DNA from: Bacteroidaceae bacterium
GTDB taxonomy: Bacteria > Bacteroidota > Bacteroidia > Bacteroidales > Bacteroidaceae
Direction of reading: 5' to 3'
Assembly (NCBI GenBank): GCA_017429945.1
Contig: JAFRNY010000029.1
Coordinates: 1-52,715, forward strand
DNA: 52,715 nucleotides
How positions within the stretch are numbered: the stretch's first letter is position 1; every line of letters starts with the position of its first letter. Below the pieces are notes generated by a model. It was not told the origin of the DNA. It searched no databases and worked only from the letters and a program-made list of their open reading frames with translations. This document shows positions 8,869 to 42,600 of the stretch, in pieces. The position numbers were made by a program, and so were the translations under genes.

Positions 8869-10899
8869 ATGACTAAACGATTCCTTGCTACTGCAGCAGC
8901 GCTGTTGCTGCTCTCCGTGGGTTATGCCCAGCGCACCGTGACCAACTATGCCAAGTCCGGAATGAAGACCACACTGCGCCTCGCCTGGAACAGCGACAAC
9001 TACGGCACCGTGCAATGGCAGCGCTCGACGGACCAGGGCCAGACGTGGACCGACATCGAAGGCGCCACTGCTCACGAGCTCGAGGTCACCCCTTCGGCCG
9101 ACACCTTCCTGCGCGTCGTAGTCCGTGGCGACGAAGCCTGCGAACCTTTCGTTGAGACCCACATACTGCGCGTCGTCAATTTCAACGTCAACCTCGTCGA
9201 GGCTCTTTCCACAGAGGCCACATTCGAGATTACTGGCCTCAACATCCCCGCCAGCGAGGTCGTGGAGTACGGCTTCGCACGCAACTTCAGCGGCGTCAAC
9301 CGCGCCTATGCCAGCATGGAGCGCACGCCCATAGGCGCAGAGCTACCCGCCGGCGACTTCGAAGCCACCTGCACCGGCCTGCAGCCCAACCGCCAGTACA
9401 GCATACGTTTCTACATCAAGACGCGCGACGGTTCACTCATCTTCGGACCCGGCAAGCTCACCAAGACTCTCAGCGGCCTCGAATGGAGCACCGAGGATTG
9501 GGCTATCACCAAGAGTAGCATCCAGGCCCGATTCAACATCCCAGGCTACACCGGCGCCAAACCCACCATGACCTTCGAACTCGGCACCGACGAAGCCTCA
9601 ATGAAGAAGTACGTCATCCTCACCGACGACGCCAACACACACAAATACAAATCAAATAACATCACCGGCCTCAAGCCCGCGACAGACTACATCGTACGTG
9701 TGACGGCCGACATCGATGGCGACGAGCAAGTGCTCCAGAAGACCGTGCGCACCATGACCGACTACAGCACCTACGACGTAGATGACACTGTCCTGCCCGT
9801 GCGACATCGCATTCGCTGGGAACATCGTACCACAGCCCTGCAACTCAATCCCACTAACATCCAAGCTGAGTACCCCCGCATGCTACGCGTGAGCAAGGAC
9901 ACACTGCTGCTCGCCTACCACGGCGGCGACGGCTCCACAGGCGCTGCCGACCACTGGCAGAACATCTACCTCCACCGCTCAACCGACAACGGCCGCACAT
10001 GGTCGGCGCCCGAGAAGATCTTCGACCGCACCAAAACGTGGCTTGCCAACGGTTGGTTCCGCATCACCAACCCCGAGCTCATTCGCCTCCAGAACGGATG
10101 GGTGCTCTTGACCGTCAGCACCAACGCCAATCCTGAGACCAACCAGAACTGCCAGGTGCTCGTAATCATAAGCCGCGACGGCGGCCAGACTTGGAGCGAC
10201 CCCATCACCGTGCTGCGCGGCCGCTGCTGGGAGCCACAGATCGTGCAGCTGCCAGGCGGCGAGCTCGAGCTGCTCGTCTCGAGCGAAGCCTATTGGTGGG
10301 ACAACCAGCGCAACAACCTCTTCCAGGAGATCGTGTGCGCACGCTCCACCGACAACGGACTCACGTGGACGCAGCAGCGCCGAGCAAGCTACAACCCCGG
10401 CAAGCGCGACGGCATGCCCGTGCAGGTGGTGCTCCAGGGCAACAAAGGCATCCTCTTCAGCTACGAAAGCATTAACAGCGACAAGAACCCAAGCATCTCA
10501 TGGCGACCGCTCGACGGCGAGTGGGACAGCGCCGACTGGGATGAGCGGAGCGACGACCGCCGCTGGGTCTGCGACAACATTCGCGGCGGCTGCGCGCCCT
10601 ATGCCCTGCAGCTGCAGACGGGCGAAATCGTCGTCATGGGCCACCTCGGACAGAACGGCGACGTATGGCAGACCAACCGCCTGCAGATTTGCATAGGCGA
10701 CAACACGGGCCACAACTTCGGCTACCGCACCATCCCCTTCTCTACCCTGCCCCGCGGCGAAGGCGCCTACTACGGCTCGCTCTTCCAAAAGGACGAGAAC
10801 ACCATCTGGCTCCTCTACACCCACTCGCGCTACAGCGGCACCGAATGTCAGCTCAACACCGTAGAGCTGCTCGAAGGCCACATTGAAGAAATCAACTAA
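8869..10899 (+). CDS. Sialidase-superfamily (BNR/Asp-box) glycosidase, GH93-like
   Basis: A 676-residue secreted protein (signal ends near GYAQ). The N-terminal third has Ig/fibronectin-like modules (about 25-300). The C-terminal part (about 310-676) is a propeller with Asp-boxes STDNGRTWSAP (near 370), SRDGGQTWSDP (near 434) and STDNGLTWTQ (near 492). Asp-box propellers include GH33 sialidases and GH93 exo-arabinanases. A classic FRIP sialidase motif is absent; YPRMLRV is the nearest equivalent. With a GH43-like gene nearby, an arabinan-active GH93-type enzyme is the better guess, but this is context-based. An extra Asp-box-like STDQGQTWTD lies in the N-terminal module. It is followed by a REP-like palindrome and then the toroid gene. 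Confidence 0.65.
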   Translation: MTKRFLATAAALLLLSVGYAQRTVTNYAKSGMKTTLRLAWNSDNYGTVQWQRSTDQGQTWTDIEGATAHELEVTPSADTFLRVVVRGDEACEPFVETHILRVVNFNVNLVEALSTEATFEITGLNIPASEVVEYGFARNFSGVNRAYASMERTPIGAELPAGDFEATCTGLQPNRQYSIRFYIKTRDGSLIFGPGKLTKTLSGLEWSTEDWAITKSSIQARFNIPGYTGAKPTMTFELGTDEASMKKYVILTDDANTHKYKSNNITGLKPATDYIVRVTADIDGDEQVLQKTVRTMTDYSTYDVDDTVLPVRHRIRWEHRTTALQLNPTNIQAEYPRMLRVSKDTLLLAYHGGDGSTGAADHWQNIYLHRSTDNGRTWSAPEKIFDRTKTWLANGWFRITNPELIRLQNGWVLLTVSTNANPETNQNCQVLVIISRDGGQTWSDPITVLRGRCWEPQIVQLPGGELELLVSSEAYWWDNQRNNLFQEIVCARSTDNGLTWTQQRRASYNPGKRDGMPVQVVLQGNKGILFSYESINSDKNPSISWRPLDGEWDSADWDERSDDRRWVCDNIRGGCAPYALQLQTGEIVVMGHLGQNGDVWQTNRLQICIGDNTGHNFGYRTIPFSTLPRGEGAYYGSLFQKDENTIWLLYTHSRYSGTECQLNTVELLEGHIEEIN

Positions 10900-10912: not shown

Positions 10913-10933
10913 TCAGGCGGTTTCCCCGCCTGA
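10913..10933 (+). repeat. REP-like palindrome, 8-bp stem with TTTCC loop
   Basis: TCAGGCGG, loop TTTCC, CCGCCTGA: a perfect 8-bp stem. The same 21-nt layout occurs three times inside the RAYT gene (39471-39491, 39834-39854, 39903-39923). No T-run follows, so it is not a standard terminator. Confidence 0.7.
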
Positions 10934-13313: not shown

Positions 13314-13424
13314 CCATTGCCCCCACGATCATTGCCTATTGAGGCAGAGGGCTATGCCAATTGGGCAGAAATCGTCGTCCATTGCGGCTGAAAGCTTCGT
13401 CCATTGCGGCAGAATTTTATTCTG
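13314..13424. repeat. Degenerate ~22-bp repeat array upstream of the uvrA-like gene
   Basis: Five units begin near 13314, 13335, 13357, 13379 and 13401 with the theme CCATTGCGGCAGAA. The period is 21-24 bp, again about two helical turns, but the sequence differs from the GACCGG arrays. The array ends about 35 bp before the -33 box of the next gene. Confidence 0.6.
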
Positions 13425-13459
13425 CCAAAGCCTTGATTATGCTCTTTTAGGCCGAAAAC

Positions 13460-13490
13460 TTTGCCTTTTGGGAAGAAAGCAGTACCTTTG
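13460..13490 (+). promoter_or_regulatory. Bacteroidota sigma-A promoter of the uvrA-like gene
   Basis: TTTG at 13460-13463, a 19-nt spacer, then TACCTTTG at 13483-13490 exactly fits the TTTG/TAnnTTTG consensus. The coding start at 13516 is about 20 nt beyond the expected transcription start. This argues against any start upstream of the promoter. Confidence 0.75.
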
Positions 13491-13515
13491 CCGATGTAAA
13501 TGCAAAAAAACGCTG

Positions 13516-15957
<2,442 letters not shown>

Positions 15958-15978
<21 letters not shown>

Positions 15979-16018
15979 CTGATTAACATATTAACTGATT
16001 AACGCATTAACTGATTAG
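15958..16018. repeat. TTAAC-type short repeat array (copy 1)
   Basis: About six copies of a 10-12-bp unit built on ATTAACAYATTAAC/TGATTAAC. The array begins inside the 3' end of the uvrA-like gene and supplies its stop codon. Its core recurs at 20766, 21892 and 23427. Beyond it, 16019-16140 shows no clear promoter for the M60 gene. Confidence 0.8.
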
Positions 16019-32123: not shown

Positions 32124-32250
32124 GAGTTGACGAGTTGACAAGTTGAGAAGTTGACGAGTTGACAAGTTGACGAGTTGACGAGTTGACAAGTTGACAAGTT
32201 GAGAAGTTGACGAGTTGACAAGTTGACGAGTTGACAAGTTGACGAGTTGA
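32124..32250. repeat. 8-bp tandem array (RAGTTGAC), ~15 copies, upstream of the GH127 gene
   Basis: About fifteen units of GAGTTGAC or AAGTTGAC, each 8 bp. Three units (24 bp) keep frame, so the stretch stays open and would encode QLVNLSTR-type repeats ahead of the true signal peptide. Copy-number changes would alter the leader. Confidence 0.9.
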
Positions 32251-32266
32251 TTCATCATTAGTCATT

Positions 32267-32364
32267 ATTCTTAACTCTTCATTCTTAACTCTTCATTCTT
32301 AACTCTTCATTCTTAACTCTTCATTCTTAACTCTTCATTCTTAACTCTTCATTCTTAACTCTTC
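32267..32364. repeat. 14-bp tandem array, seven copies
   Basis: Seven exact copies of ATTCTTAACTCTTC. Together with the 8-bp array it fills almost all of the 279-bp gap between the GH127 gene and the next gene. No promoter is evident for the GH127 gene. Confidence 0.92.
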
Positions 32365-32387
32365 ATTAAAAATGGCTTCGGCCATTT

Positions 32388-37794: not shown

Positions 37795-38175
37795 CTGCTA
37801 AATCACGAAACAGCGAAATTTTCAACCTATTTTTAGCTCAAAAGGCTAAAGAAGAGGAAAAAGAGGGAAGAATCGTTTATCGTTTAGGGCTTAGAGTTTA
37901 AGGTTTTGGGCCTCTTGATTGTTGTCGGCAAGAAGAATGAGGAATGACAAATGATGAATGAGGTATGACGAATGACAAATGATGAATGATGAATGACGAA
38001 TGATGAATGACGAATGATGAATGACGAATGAGGATTACTTCAGAAGGAGAATGAAAGACGAAGAGTGAAGGAAGTGGTTGAGGTAAAAAAATATTTGTTC
38101 AAAACAGACTACAGACTTCAGCTACCGATGAAGAATAACAGCAACGCCCGGTTCAATATCATTCACAAAAAACGC

Positions 38176-38318: not shown

Positions 38319-38767
38319 AATAACACTTATACTACCTACTCCCCCACTTCGCCACTGCACTACCGCCACGCCACCTCTATCAACAACAATTCTCCCTCGT
38401 GGCTGTAGTCTGTAGTCTATTTTGAACAAAAAAATTTTCTCACATCTGCCCCATACTTCACTCCTCGCTTTCATCCCCCTCTGAAGTAATCCTCATTCGT
38501 CACTCATCATTCATCACTCTTCACTCTTCATTATATTATTCTTCATTCTTCACTCATCATTCGTCATTCGCAAACCCTCATTCGTCATTCATCATTTGTC
38601 ATTCGTCATTCGCAAACCCTCATTCATCACTCGTCACTCGTCATTCGCAAACCCTCATTCGTCACTCATCACTCGTCATTCGTCATTCGCAAACCCTCAT
38701 TAGTCATTCATCATTCGTCATTCATCATTATATTATTCTTCACTCTTCATTCTTCACTCTTCATTCT

Positions 38768-40396
38768 TCACTCCCCCACCCCTCTCCTCTCCTTCTTCCA
38801 CCAATCATCTCTCATGCGGCATAGCGCCTGCGCCACACAATTCATCGTCTTACATTCCGTCACGCTAATCCCCTCATCGGCCCGACGATAAACAAAGCGC
38901 CAAGGGCTTACAATCAGCAACAACCCGGCAGCGCACAGCTCCGTTCGTTCCGTAGAGGGGTGAAAACGCTCCCCAAAACCATTATCCGCAATAATCACCA
39001 CAGGCAGCCCCTCGCCCATCGCCGCATCTATTATCTCCTGCTCGCCCTTGGCAATCCGTGGCGACACCAAAACCGCACCGGCCCGTGCCGCGGCCAAGCA
39101 CCGCTCCTTCTGCGTCCCAAACGCCCCCTTATCCCGCCTATGGCACACAACCGGCAGCAATATCCGCTCCTCCCCCGTATCAGTCCCGATACCACTCTCC
39201 CGCTCTCTTCTCCCTTCCGCAGCAGATTCCCCCATCCCTCCGCCCTGGAGCGCGGCGGCGGTCTTTCCCTCTTCTTCGCCTTGGGGCGCGGCGGCGGTTT
39301 TTCCCATTCCTCCGCCTTGGGGCGCGGCGGCGGTCTTTCCCTCTTCTTCGCCTTGGGGTGCGGCGGCGGTCTTTCCCTCTTCCCCGCCTTGGAGCGCAGC
39401 GGCGGGTTTTTCCTCTTCCCGGCCCTGGGGTGCGGCGGCGGGTTTTTCCTCTTCCCGGCCCTGGGGTGCGGCGGCGGGTTTTCCCCGCCGCTTCAGCAGC
39501 CCTCTATCCCCGTAGCTATCACAGCCCACCATGGCGCCCTGCTTCAGCAGGCGCCCCTCAATCCGCTCCCAAATCAGAGCTGTAAACTGCCAAGGCTCGC
39601 ATTCTCGTGCCAAATAACCCCGCAGCGCATTAAGCGAGAGGGCTGTATCGATACCACCGCGCCGCGCAGCAAGCCACGCCCGATTCCTGCTGCGCAGCAG
39701 CCTGCTTCGCGGATTATTGCGGATATAAGCAATCTGCGTCTGCAGCTGCCGCGCATCCACGGGCATCACATCTACGTACCCCTCAGCAAAGAGAGGCGTC
39801 CGCCCGCTACTCAAGCGAGAAGGCACTTTATACCCAAGCGGGGAAACCGCTTGGCGCGCCCCCAAAGCACTACCAGGCGAGAGCCCTCCCCCTTGGGGTG
39901 CGGCAGCGGGTTTCCCCCGCTGCTCCATCCCTCCCCGCTGCTCCATCTGCTCCCGTTGCTCCATCTCTCCCCGCAGCCCATTCATCTCCCAGAAGCGCCT
40001 ATTGCAGCCCTTCTTGAAACCGCCTATCACATGGCCGAGATGAGTGGCGCGCCCCTGGCGGCTCTCCACCCTGCTATGCACCATAAGAAGAACATGCAAA
40101 TGCTCTGGCATTACAACATACTCCATTACCTCCACCATCGGATAATGCCCCTTTATGCTCTGAGTAAGTTCCTCTTCCACCATCTGCCCAGCCCCCGTGA
40201 GCTCGGTGTGAGGCGCCCCAGGCAGACCATCCTCAATATCGGGATCGCCCACCACTCGCCCAAGCACCGGTCCCCATTCGTCGCTTACCTTCAGCGTGAT
40301 GTGGTAAAGTCCTGGCAGATAGTAGCAGTTAGCATCTTTACGGCGTCCCATCCGATGAGCGCCCAGTCCATCATTATATCCCTTATCTTTTTCCAT
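38768..40396 (-). CDS. REP-associated tyrosine transposase (RAYT/Y1-type) with extra C-terminal domain
   Basis: A 542-residue HUH single-strand transposase. Start MEKDKG (40396) follows a TATCTTTG box closely. The Y1 domain (about 20-260) has the metal-binding HLH of MPEHLHVLL (His99, His101) and the tyrosine motif IAYIRNNP (Tyr224). Y1 enzymes of this type act on REP palindromes. Residues ~140-205 are an insertion between these motifs, encoded in part by palindromes 39834 and 39903. Residues ~304-387 are seven 12-residue repeats (GKTAAAPQGEEE). Residues ~412-535 form a Rossmann-like DprA/SLOG-type domain (AGAVLVSPRIAKGEQEII, LPVVIIADNG, CAAGLLLIVSP), not usual for the RAYTs I know. The stop lies in the palindrome's repeats. 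Whether this large form is active is unknown. Confidence 0.72.
   Translation of the reverse strand: MEKDKGYNDGLGAHRMGRRKDANCYYLPGLYHITLKVSDEWGPVLGRVVGDPDIEDGLPGAPHTELTGAGQMVEEELTQSIKGHYPMVEVMEYVVMPEHLHVLLMVHSRVESRQGRATHLGHVIGGFKKGCNRRFWEMNGLRGEMEQREQMEQRGGMEQRGKPAAAPQGGGLSPGSALGARQAVSPLGYKVPSRLSSGRTPLFAEGYVDVMPVDARQLQTQIAYIRNNPRSRLLRSRNRAWLAARRGGIDTALSLNALRGYLARECEPWQFTALIWERIEGRLLKQGAMVGCDSYGDRGLLKRRGKPAAAPQGREEEKPAAAPQGREEEKPAAALQGGEEGKTAAAPQGEEEGKTAAAPQGGGMGKTAAAPQGEEEGKTAAALQGGGMGESAAEGRRERESGIGTDTGEERILLPVVCHRRDKGAFGTQKERCLAAARAGAVLVSPRIAKGEQEIIDAAMGEGLPVVIIADNGFGERFHPSTERTELCAAGLLLIVSPWRFVYRRADEGISVTECKTMNCVAQALCRMRDDWWKKERRGVGE
39236..39487. repeat. 36-bp tandem repeat inside the RAYT gene
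   Basis: Seven 36-bp (12-codon) units on the + strand theme TTGGGGCGCGGCGGCGG plus TTTTTCC. The GCGGCGG/TTTTCC part is the left half of the REP-like palindrome, repeated without its right arm; the last unit completes the palindrome at 39471-39491. Confidence 0.8.
39471..39491 (+). repeat. REP-like palindrome in the RAYT gene (a)
   Basis: GCGGCGGG, loop TTTTC, CCCGCCGC: perfect 8-bp stem, 5-nt loop. Confidence 0.7.
39834..39854 (-). repeat. REP-like palindrome in the RAYT gene (b)
   Basis: On the - strand CCAAGCGG, loop TTTCC, CCGCTTGG: perfect 8-bp stem with the loop identical to 10913-10933. Confidence 0.7.
39903..39923 (+). repeat. REP-like palindrome in the RAYT gene (c)
   Basis: GCAGCGGG, loop TTTCC, CCCGCTGC: perfect 8-bp stem, same 21-nt layout. 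Confidence 0.7.
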
Positions 40397-40462: not shown

Positions 40463-40493
40463 AAAAAAAGCCCGCGCAGCTGTCTGCGCGGGC
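40463..40493 (-). terminator. Terminator of the pilus operon
   Basis: GCCCGCGCAG and its perfect complement with a 4-nt loop (40470-40493). On the - strand seven T follow. It lies ~50 bp after the last fimbrial gene. Confidence 0.85.
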
Positions 40494-40545: not shown

Positions 40546-42600
40546 TTACGGAGCAGCAGTTGTAACGGGTACCGAGTAGTTCTTACCGAAGTACTTCACG
40601 TAGAGGAAGAGACCGAGGTCAGTTACATTCGCAAATCTTATATTTGTATGCACATCTTCCAAATAGATGTTCACATTACCATCTTCTGGATATGTCTTCA
40701 AGCTATAAGTGTACCAGAAATCCCAATTTTTGTCTGCCTGCTGATAGTACCAATGTGTTCTTGCGGTATTAGCAGTAGAGGATATGGGGGTATCATAATC
40801 AGATTCAAAATTTGCGACATCGAACAATTCACTTGTGCTTTCTACGCTAACTCCAAATGAACCATAGCTAGTCTCATTTTGAGTAATACCAAAAGCACGC
40901 AGAGTACTCGTTGTGAACTTTACATCTATTGGATAGAGACTCTCTGGATACACTAGCTCATCTGGATCAGGAATTATATTTCCGCCTTCATCTGTAATGA
41001 ACTTAGTATGCTCCACGGGAGGAATCTGGAAGTGAAGTACATAATCATCACTAGTCCCAACTCTCGTTAATGTAGGTTTAATCCTATAACGGAACTGGTT
41101 AATAACGAATACATGGATATAACGAGTCAAACCAGAATCTTTATGCTTCACAACAATCCATTCGTCCTGCAATCTGTCTGAAAGCTTACCTTCTATAACA
41201 TTTGTTGTAATCTGGAATTGCTTAGTTGCTTCGACATAAGAAAGAACAGGATCTGTGCAGAATGTCTGAGATTTTTCCCAATAGACTTCAAAGTCATCCG
41301 GATCTGTTGAACCTGGCAGGCTTACATCACTCACCATACGGAAGGCAAAATCAAGTTGATGAGGACCTTCTGTGTTGAGCACGATGGCTGTAGTCTGAGT
41401 CGGAAGCAGAATCTGCAAAGTGTAATCTTCATCATTAATATCTGTGATGCTACGATCAATCTCAACGTCTGCATTAACAAATTCTGTTCCATCAATAGCG
41501 TCTTTCAAGGTCTCGTAGAAAGCAACATTAGGGCTCAACAACTTACACTTGATATAATATGTGTTATTGCGAACTACGTCATATTTGTCTTGTTTATCGT
41601 CGTTCAACAATAAGACATGATACACCTTCTTTGACACACCATTGTCGTTGTAAGTAACCTTAAGTATAGCCTTTAATGGCTCTAAGTCGGTATTATCATC
41701 ATCGAACAGGAACTGAGGCTTTGAGGTGTAAGTACCTGTCCTTTGATAGGCGACATCAAAGTTATTATCCTCATTTTCTGATTCTGAGGTCCAAAGGCTA
41801 TATCGACCTGAAGTCGAATATTCATTCATTCCTGCCGTAGCTACTAATTCCGAAGTATGACCTTCAACGGTTGAATTACCAAAATAATTCTCCTTATTAG
41901 CATCATCATCCCACCAAGAAGCCTTCGCAGGGGCTATATAACCACGCTCACGACCATTATGGATAAGCCATTCAACTTTCTCAACCGTAAGACCTTCTGG
42001 AGTACCAGCAGGGTCATAAGTCAGAACGACCTTTGCACGGTCGCGAATCATATATACCACACTAGAACCTTCAGTCGTGGGATTGAGCCAAGCGTTCATA
42101 GCGTTAGCATCTGCAGCCTTACGATATCCCCAATAACAGACCTGTTGATGATCTTCATCATCGTAGGCTGTGGACAACTCCATTGACTGCATTACAGTCT
42201 CTTCTGCAGTACCAACGTTGAAAGAGAGAGGAATGGAAAGGTCGCGATTAGCAATAAAGTGGATACGCGCTGTACCTTGAGGCACAGAACCTTTGATGAT
42301 GCCTGTGTCATACATCGGCGGATTTGTACCTGCGCCATTGCTGGTAACATCAGCTTTACGGATACCTAGATAGAGTCCATTGGCATCGAAGCAGACAAGC
42401 TGCATAGATGTAACAACCGACTCATTGCCGCTGACCATACTGCGTGTCGGTTTAGCCTTATCAGCAAAACTAAAGGCTATGTTGACAGGCATATCGCCAG
42501 GCTGCGAACCGCCAGGACTAACGATTTCAGACTCATCAGCACAAGCCGCAAATCCGAGAACTGCGACTGCAATGAATAATAGTTTTGAAAGATATTTCAT
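40546..42600 (-). CDS. Fimbrillin-family lipoprotein, accessory/tip subunit of the type V pilus
   Basis: A 684-residue exported lipoprotein (lipobox GFAAC, Cys20). Residues ~38-380 look like a fimbrillin (Mfa/FimA-type) beta-sandwich pair: MPVNIAFSFADKAKPTRSMVS, MQLVCFDANGLYLG, AVLTY-type strands and a conserved segment VRNNTYYIKCKLLS. Arg53 in PTRSM sits where other subunits of this cluster also have Thr-Arg, the expected protease processing site. The C-terminal ~300 residues are all-beta and of unknown family; they may form an adhesive head. The gene is more AT-rich than the upstream half of the cluster. It is last in the operon, 34 bp after the next subunit's stop, with the terminator after it. 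Confidence 0.75.
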   Translation of the reverse strand: MKYLSKLLFIAVAVLGFAACADESEIVSPGGSQPGDMPVNIAFSFADKAKPTRSMVSGNESVVTSMQLVCFDANGLYLGIRKADVTSNGAGTNPPMYDTGIIKGSVPQGTARIHFIANRDLSIPLSFNVGTAEETVMQSMELSTAYDDEDHQQVCYWGYRKAADANAMNAWLNPTTEGSSVVYMIRDRAKVVLTYDPAGTPEGLTVEKVEWLIHNGRERGYIAPAKASWWDDDANKENYFGNSTVEGHTSELVATAGMNEYSTSGRYSLWTSESENEDNNFDVAYQRTGTYTSKPQFLFDDDNTDLEPLKAILKVTYNDNGVSKKVYHVLLLNDDKQDKYDVVRNNTYYIKCKLLSPNVAFYETLKDAIDGTEFVNADVEIDRSITDINDEDYTLQILLPTQTTAIVLNTEGPHQLDFAFRMVSDVSLPGSTDPDDFEVYWEKSQTFCTDPVLSYVEATKQFQITTNVIEGKLSDRLQDEWIVVKHKDSGLTRYIHVFVINQFRYRIKPTLTRVGTSDDYVLHFQIPPVEHTKFITDEGGNIIPDPDELVYPESLYPIDVKFTTSTLRAFGITQNETSYGSFGVSVESTSELFDVANFESDYDTPISSTANTARTHWYYQQADKNWDFWYTYSLKTYPEDGNVNIYLEDVHTNIRFANVTDLGLFLYVKYFGKNYSVPVTTAAP

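Follow-up and report, generated by a model that had tools for sequence, protein, structure and literature searches.

REP hairpins inside genes and a RAYT-type transposase with a predicted DprA-like domain in a Bacteroidaceae genome

REPs are named for their extragenic position. Quentin et al. (2018, PMC6006769) described REPs lying in frame within tnpA_REP genes, so the central point of the present analysis is already in print for related enzymes; the passages concerned assign these REPs to subclass 2.4, place them generally between HuH and Y, call them a unique feature of that subclass and suggest that they may have little effect. For E. coli REPs, passages of PMC8266576 state that the upper stem and loop could be swapped and that certain lower-stem bases mattered, and also that two other enzymes were less active with a stem mismatch. 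A literature search for REPs in Prevotella found no matching paper.

The locus described here is a RAYT gene with palindromes inside its coding sequence. The stretch of DNA analysed (the window, 52,715 nucleotides) is contig C15 of a 2.96-Mb draft genome (G000; 82% complete, 92 contigs), and the relatives searched included 36 congeners (G001-G036). RAYT loci of the genus numbered 54, three of them without an HUH ORF, which left 51 ORFs taken from stop to stop, so that a few hairpins near the ORF beginnings may precede the true start. Alignment A1 consists of 43 proteins, the window's included; eight of the 51 genus ORFs were left out. For a second, named set, the best 80 were taken from 319 loci found, picked for likeness to one subfamily. 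Two of these had no ORF, leaving 78, and the taxa are mostly Prevotellaceae, Prevotella, Bacteroidaceae and Bacteroidales assemblies, many from ruminants. Alignment A3 holds 56 of the 78 ORFs, L272 among them, together with the window protein. An in-gene hairpin was defined as a perfect stem of at least 8 pairs with a loop of 3-7.

The transposase and its palindromes

The gene occupies 38768..40396 on the minus strand, with its ATG at 40396, and encodes 542 amino acids. Judged by its motifs, its profile matches and the modelled fold of a homologue, it is a RAYT-type HUH/Y1 transposase, predicted to bind and cut REP DNA. The HUH motif, VMPEHLH, falls at residues 95-101 (40094..40114, minus strand), and both histidines are invariant in the 43 aligned proteins. 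The candidate catalytic tyrosine is Y224 in AYIRNNP (39725..39727, minus strand; Y223 in the numbering of A1). It is invariant in A1, and the N and P of its Y-x-x-x-N-P context are present in at least 90% of the aligned proteins. The window protein matches the NCBIfam model REP_Tyr_transpos with 26.2 bits (E 6e-6), the cut-off being 80; this model matches 42 of the 43 A1 proteins, the window's included, at E <=0.1 (best 6e-13). Pfam Y1_Tnp matches 26 of the 43, and the window protein itself has no Pfam match. A profile search of the PDB returned ISDra2 TnpA (E 0.0013). The single-sequence model of the window protein was too poor to use (pLDDT 41), and the HUH/Y1 fold was recognised not on this model but on that of L272, a homologue 36% identical to the window protein and modelled from 57 sequences (pLDDT 80.6). 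With the L272 model, Foldseek found IS200/IS605 transposases, ISDra2 TnpA (2xm3) and the RAYT-REP complex 4er8.

Beside VMPEHLH and AYIRNNP the window protein has two variable linkers and a C-terminal domain. The linker between the HUH and Tyr motifs (approximately 39758..39976, minus strand) holds two palindromes; the second REP-bearing linker, a 36-bp tandem array and the C-terminal domain are features beyond the original prediction.

The C-terminal domain (approximately 38771..39178, minus strand) is predicted from the homologue to have a DprA-like Rossmann fold, fused to the HUH transposase. Helices and strands alternate from residue 239 of the L272 model, and Foldseek with this model returned the DprA chains 4ljk, 5mll and 3uqz as well as ShosA (8zva), the DprA match having an E-value of 5.8e-6, a probability of 1.00 and a TM of 0.48 by target length. 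We infer that the match belongs to the C-terminal part from the order of the elements and because the HUH matches take the rest. By sequence, comparison of the domain with PDB, Pfam and PHROGs gave nothing firm: no DprA model of Pfam matched among 17 C-terminal pieces, and a profile search of the PDB with the domain found no DprA chain. Full-text literature searches gave no paper on a RAYT-DprA-like fusion among the matches listed.

All four palindromes of the original prediction were verified as 8-bp perfect stems with 5-nt loops. GCGGCGGG-TTTTC-CCCGCCGC (39471..39491, plus strand) is antisense to the RAYT and closes the tandem array. CCAAGCGG-TTTCC-CCGCTTGG (39834..39854, minus strand, tag GGGGGCGCG) is sense to it; its loop, GGAAA as given, is TTTCC on the minus strand. 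GCAGCGGG-TTTCC-CCCGCTGC (39903..39923, plus strand, tag GGGGTGCG) is again antisense, as are thus two of the three in-gene copies. The fourth, TCAGGCGG-TTTCC-CCGCCTGA (10913..10933, plus strand, tag AGGGCCGCG), lies between two genes and, as had been proposed, after the neighbouring one, starting 14 bases past the end (10899) of the 8869-10899 ORF. The array (39240..39485, plus strand) comprises 6.8 copies of a 36-bp unit, and its minus strand encodes PAAAPQG-like repeats. Each unit is made of the tag, left arm and loop of the REP element, and the right arm is found only in the last unit, which gives rise to palindrome 39471.

The palindromes at 39471 and 39903 have one extra G-C pair beside the loop (GCGGG/CCCGC); with at most one mismatch this core has two matches in G000, both inside the window RAYT gene. 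Three palindromes in an ORF of 1629 bp are only mildly unlikely (P ~0.007) at the hairpin rate of a 344-kb sample of which the window is part. The sample holds 82 hairpins, most of them from other families, against 18-25 in three Markov shuffles. No perfect hairpin of the window's REP family was found within 300 bp outside the ORF. A likely terminator on the minus strand (40470-40493; an inverted repeat with 10-bp arms, then a T run) sits between the gene at 40546-42600 and the RAYT gene. The window also has arrays of 7- and 8-bp units (e.g. TCATTCG, GAATGAC, AGTTGACA and ATTAACTG) at 32125-32367, 37935-38031, 38493-38770, 15950-16017 and other places, mostly between genes or at gene ends.

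Copy number, pairing and position of the repeat family

The core GCGGTTTCCCCGC (GCGG-TTTCC-CCGC) occurs 8 times in the 2.96 Mb of G000, where about 0.15 copies are expected from base composition, and 13 times in the congener G018, and the reversed control is found in neither genome. The remaining 39 genomes have 0-2 copies, with any match at all in 6 of the 41. When up to one mismatch is allowed, the core and control counts are 41 and 1 in G018, 15 and 5 in G000, and 10 and 1 in G015; the nine other congeners tested are near control level. The enrichment that had been predicted was seen, the window family being commoner in its own genome than the control and than in most congeners searched.

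In aligned copies a 5' tag is followed by an arm of four variable bases, then by GCGG-TTTNC-CCGC and lastly by an arm complementary to the first. The GT[AG]G foot of known REPs is absent; G000 copies have GGGGYTGCG as their tag, and G018 copies have GCGTTGGTG or a TCGTGTG form. All four bases of the outer arms pair in 29 of the 41 G018 sites (permuted mean 2.8, maximum 9 in 2000 runs) and in 10 of the 15 G000 sites (permuted mean 1.4, maximum 7). Since 16 distinct left arms occur among the 29 paired G018 sites, this is covariation and not identity. By copy number and covariation the window palindromes are REPs, that is, short tagged palindromes repeated in the genome.

Gene context was read with a home-made gene caller, whose hexamer model was built from 120 long ORFs of G000. 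Only hits with at least three paired outer bases were counted, which removed 6 of 41 in G018 and 4 of 15 in G000, and the copies at 39471 and 39903, which have the longer core and are antisense to the RAYT, are outside the G000 count. An intergenic bias of the palindromes, which had been expected, was not supported: 32 of 35 copies in G018 and 8 of 11 in G000 lie wholly inside predicted genes. These proportions are close to the coding share (88% and 82%), so the copies neither favour intergenic DNA nor show a clear excess in genes; the window family departs from the extragenic position of REP elements.

In G018, 29 of the 32 in-gene copies are sense (P 3e-6). Of these 29, 26 share a single frame, which translates as (ALV)SGGFPAG (P 5e-10 for an expectation of one third); without two tandem copies the counts become 27 of 30 and 24 of 27. 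The in-gene copies of G000 are all sense (8/8), four of them in frame 0, one in frame 1 and three in frame 2. Half-REPs were found upstream of 7/34 and downstream of 2/34 G018 copies, compared with 1/170 random positions; G000 has no such upstream excess (1/10 up, 1/10 down). Transcription terminators were rejected as the identity of the hairpins because copies lie inside genes, and selection on the peptide was rejected as the cause of the palindrome because the first and last codons of the element vary yet pair.

Compared with orthologues, the copies are evidently insertions in conserved proteins and add residues to them. The names MnmG, sigma factor, SusD and UvrA used here are presumptive, being our own reading of the sequences. 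For HPPK, 23 of 30 loci were taken and 20 parsed. The stretch is 43 residues long in G018, 34 in 15 of the 19 other parsed proteins and 33 in one; G004, G011 and G022 have longer stretches of their own at the G018 insertion site. Against two solved HPPKs the REP-coded stretch appears as a gap of 11-12. For MnmG, 30 loci were read out of 57 genomes with a match, and the stretch has 108 amino acids in G018 compared with 59-92 in the 29 other genomes; the GGFPAA hairpin is found in G018 only among the 30. The sigma factor of G018 has two 27-bp tag-arm-loop units (one diverged) followed by a complete hairpin, the same build as the array in the window RAYT, and that of G000 has none. In 25-aa windows of protein beside the copies, the tag side is of low complexity (14/28 fall under the 5% quantile for those proteins, P 4e-9), and the opposite side is less so (5/29, P 0.005).

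Some further observations were made on such genes. In 21 of the 30 genomes read, one MnmG stretch is 2-49 residues longer than its most frequent length (59), and it may therefore be a general landing site. The UvrA-like gene of the window (13339-15978) has an in-frame insert at 14865-15012, with the hairpin CTCCCCCC-GTG-GGGGGGAG and then a 42-bp tandem array. The same hairpin occurs twice upstream of the G015:C1 RAYT (L179) and also at L086, L089 and L186. The insert is thus probably the work of a second REP family.

Hairpins in related RAYT genes and their interpretation

Perfect hairpins are frequent in the genus RAYT ORFs (32 of 51, compared with 11 of 85 control ORFs, P 2.5e-9), with 50 hairpins in total, where two ways of shuffling gave 5.1 and 5.9. 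Of the 78 named-set ORFs, 63 carry one and the total is 68, against 7.5; as such counts come from related sequences, their independence is overstated. The named-set hairpins lie mostly 40-60 codons past the HUH motif (54 of 68), where 63 of the 78 ORFs have GTTGC-N9-GCAAC, all in frame 0. The inner three pairs are complete in 60 of these 63 (permuted mean 26.9, maximum 40), as GTT/AAC in 37, GAC/GTC in 16 and TGT/ACA in 7. These triplet switches change the peptide (VALxTQQT, VATxSQQT, VAVxQQQT) and keep the hairpin. Many of the hairpins are preceded by GT..CGT and followed by AAC..AC, like the double-foot REPs of the literature. For 26 labelled rows, the hand-assigned hairpin type follows a quick RAYT tree with 13 changes (300 shuffles: mean 19.3, minimum 16), whereas loop length by itself fails to follow it, with 5 changes (shuffles: mean 6.8, minimum 5).

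Cores of other in-gene hairpins were also counted in the genomes. GCTGTGATACAGC, the in-gene core of other RAYTs, has 8, 10, 8 and 8 copies in G000, G002, G003 and G029, and 0-1 in the other 57 genomes. This second tagged family is not mostly intragenic, as the 17 sites read comprise 7 sense and 1 antisense in genes and 9 outside, by a gene caller that scores RAYT genes low and may miss them. The GCGGCACTGCCGC core of another RAYT's in-gene hairpin was not clearly enriched. The second RAYT of the home genome (G000:C43) has an in-gene hairpin whose core is found only in that gene within G000 and is near control level in other genomes, and the G015 RAYT has a different in-gene hairpin, with a core that is single-copy in its genome. 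A RAYT of G007 (L020, G007:C175) has four copies of a hairpin with a 9-12-bp stem, two within the gene and one on either side of it; 61 genomes contain no other copy. L020 resembles an IS-like unit with hairpin ends. The second tagged family, GTTGNGTNTG-NNN-GCTGTATCACAGC, is found in codons resembling those of a signal peptide (CCCITAT), close to the start of genes that are SusD-like or of other kinds (L219, L226, L230, L231, also L221), with similar places in G000 and G003.

We regard it as reasonably probable that the window holds a REPtron, i.e. a RAYT with a fused DprA-like domain together with its short tagged hairpins, which it would recognise, cut and spread. The original prediction had taken the palindrome as the cognate REP of this RAYT. 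Of that reading the RAYT-type protein, the enriched tagged family and the copies carried by the gene stand, and cognacy with this RAYT we infer. The expected co-occurrence of RAYT and REP across genomes was weaker than proposed: a close RAYT homologue does not predict the REP, since the nearest one found (48-52% identity, in G015) comes with one exact core copy. The best candidate RAYT of G018 (G018:C8) is on a long branch in a different part of the tree, far from the window's RAYT; different enzymes may thus go with one REP form in G000 and G018. In a REPtron, recognition would rest on the 5' tag (GGGGYTGCG here, GCGTTGGTG in the congener) and the fixed inner stem and loop GCGG-TTTNC-CCGC, and the outer stem would be sensed as paired, not by its letters, on single-stranded DNA. 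The RAYT would cut beside the hairpin and help copies to spread, and the DprA-like part, going by its fold alone, may hold the freed strand or pass it to RecA. Because array units measure 27, 33 and 36 nt, all divisible by three, pieces could enter loops and linkers while the frame stays open, and the RAYT's own linkers may be a common landing place across the RAYT family.

Passive colonisation, in which REPs land anywhere and survive where extra residues are tolerated, so that in-gene copies are without function, is favoured in the passages of Quentin et al. 2018 (PMC6006769); here we consider it possible and on the whole rather unlikely. It agrees with a pLDDT below 50 at residues 138-157 of the L272 model, the hairpin-coded stretch, with the unrelated longer stretches at the same place in MnmG and HPPK of other species, and with an in-gene share (32/35) close to the coding fraction (82-88%). 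Against it stand the 63 of 78 named-set ORFs that keep GTTGC-N9-GCAAC in one frame, with 54 of 68 hairpins 40-60 codons after HUH, and the compensatory inner triplets (60/63 paired) are strong evidence against it, though not proof, as relatedness inflates the counts. This mostly single site and its compensatory changes would suit a regulatory element instead, the RAYT binding its own gene or mRNA at the in-gene hairpin and limiting its own production, with the genome copies secondary; so would the G007 RAYT, all four copies of which lie within or beside the gene with none elsewhere in 61 genomes. We think this explanation unlikely, as the family is spread over unrelated genes in G018 and G000, and 19 of 51 RAYT ORFs lack a perfect hairpin of at least 8 pairs.

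Low-complexity or slippage repeats of a GC-rich genome, giving chance palindromes with no link to the RAYT, might be suspected from the tandem arrays of 7-8 bp units in which the window is rich and from the low-complexity protein windows beside REPs. Such an origin is made highly improbable by 8 and 13 exact copies against 0 for the control, by the defined 5' tag and by the arm permutation test, as differing arms still pair. A bolder and, in our judgement, quite improbable proposal is that RAYT-DprA fusions and their REPs write short in-frame linkers into proteins. The enzyme would act on the exposed non-template strand of transcribed genes, which would be the cause of the sense orientation; the outer arms would be set by pairing, rounds on the tag side would build tandem low-complexity spacers, and the copy in the RAYT's own gene would be a cis target or a brake.

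Comparison with known systems

REPs that are mostly in genes and sense, with stems that pair while their letters change, are a natural experiment on structure-only recognition, and the DprA-like fusion leads to a concrete hypothesis for the handling of the cut strand. With a hairpin at one site in dozens of RAYT genes, and compensating changes in it, autoregulation and passive landing can be tested directly against each other.

The closest described group is subclass 2.4. As given in passages of PMC6006769, it shares with the present family the in-frame REPs between HUH and Tyr, Bacteroidetes hosts, a Tyr motif of the YIxNNP type and short linker repeats, and its double-foot REPs are similar to the tags on both sides of the named-set hairpins. 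The same passages give a median of 194 aa, NH[IFV]H and no tail domain, whereas the proteins here mostly have ~300-550 aa (the window's 542), [DE]H[LIVF]H and an added domain that is predicted to be DprA-like. The window protein further differs in a second REP-bearing linker and in tags other than GT[AG]G, and there is evidence here that the in-gene hairpin is maintained.

The E. coli TnpA_REP-REP complex 4er8 shares the HUH/Y1 fold (TM 0.61 by target length, with the L272 model), but its chain has 165 residues and hence is without the added domain. DprA (4ljk, 3uqz) and ShosA (8zva) have the same fold as is predicted for the C-terminal part of L272; there is no sequence-level match to DprA, and in the window family the domain is fused to an HUH transposase.

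The E. coli REPs, with GTAG, a bulge and a mostly intergenic position according to passages of PMC8266576, are unlike the window family. Rickettsia palindromic elements likewise lie in frame in protein genes and encode extra peptides (passages of PMC10969869 and PMC3733652), but they are ~150 bp long according to the review PMC10969869, whereas the elements here are ~30 bp with a fixed core, varying paired arms and RAYTs in the genome. GTAG/CGTC REPs, in the portions of PMC3733652 that concern them, also occur inside ORFs, repair genes such as uvrA included; these REPs are mostly intergenic, whereas the window family is mostly intragenic and sense, and in one frame in G018.
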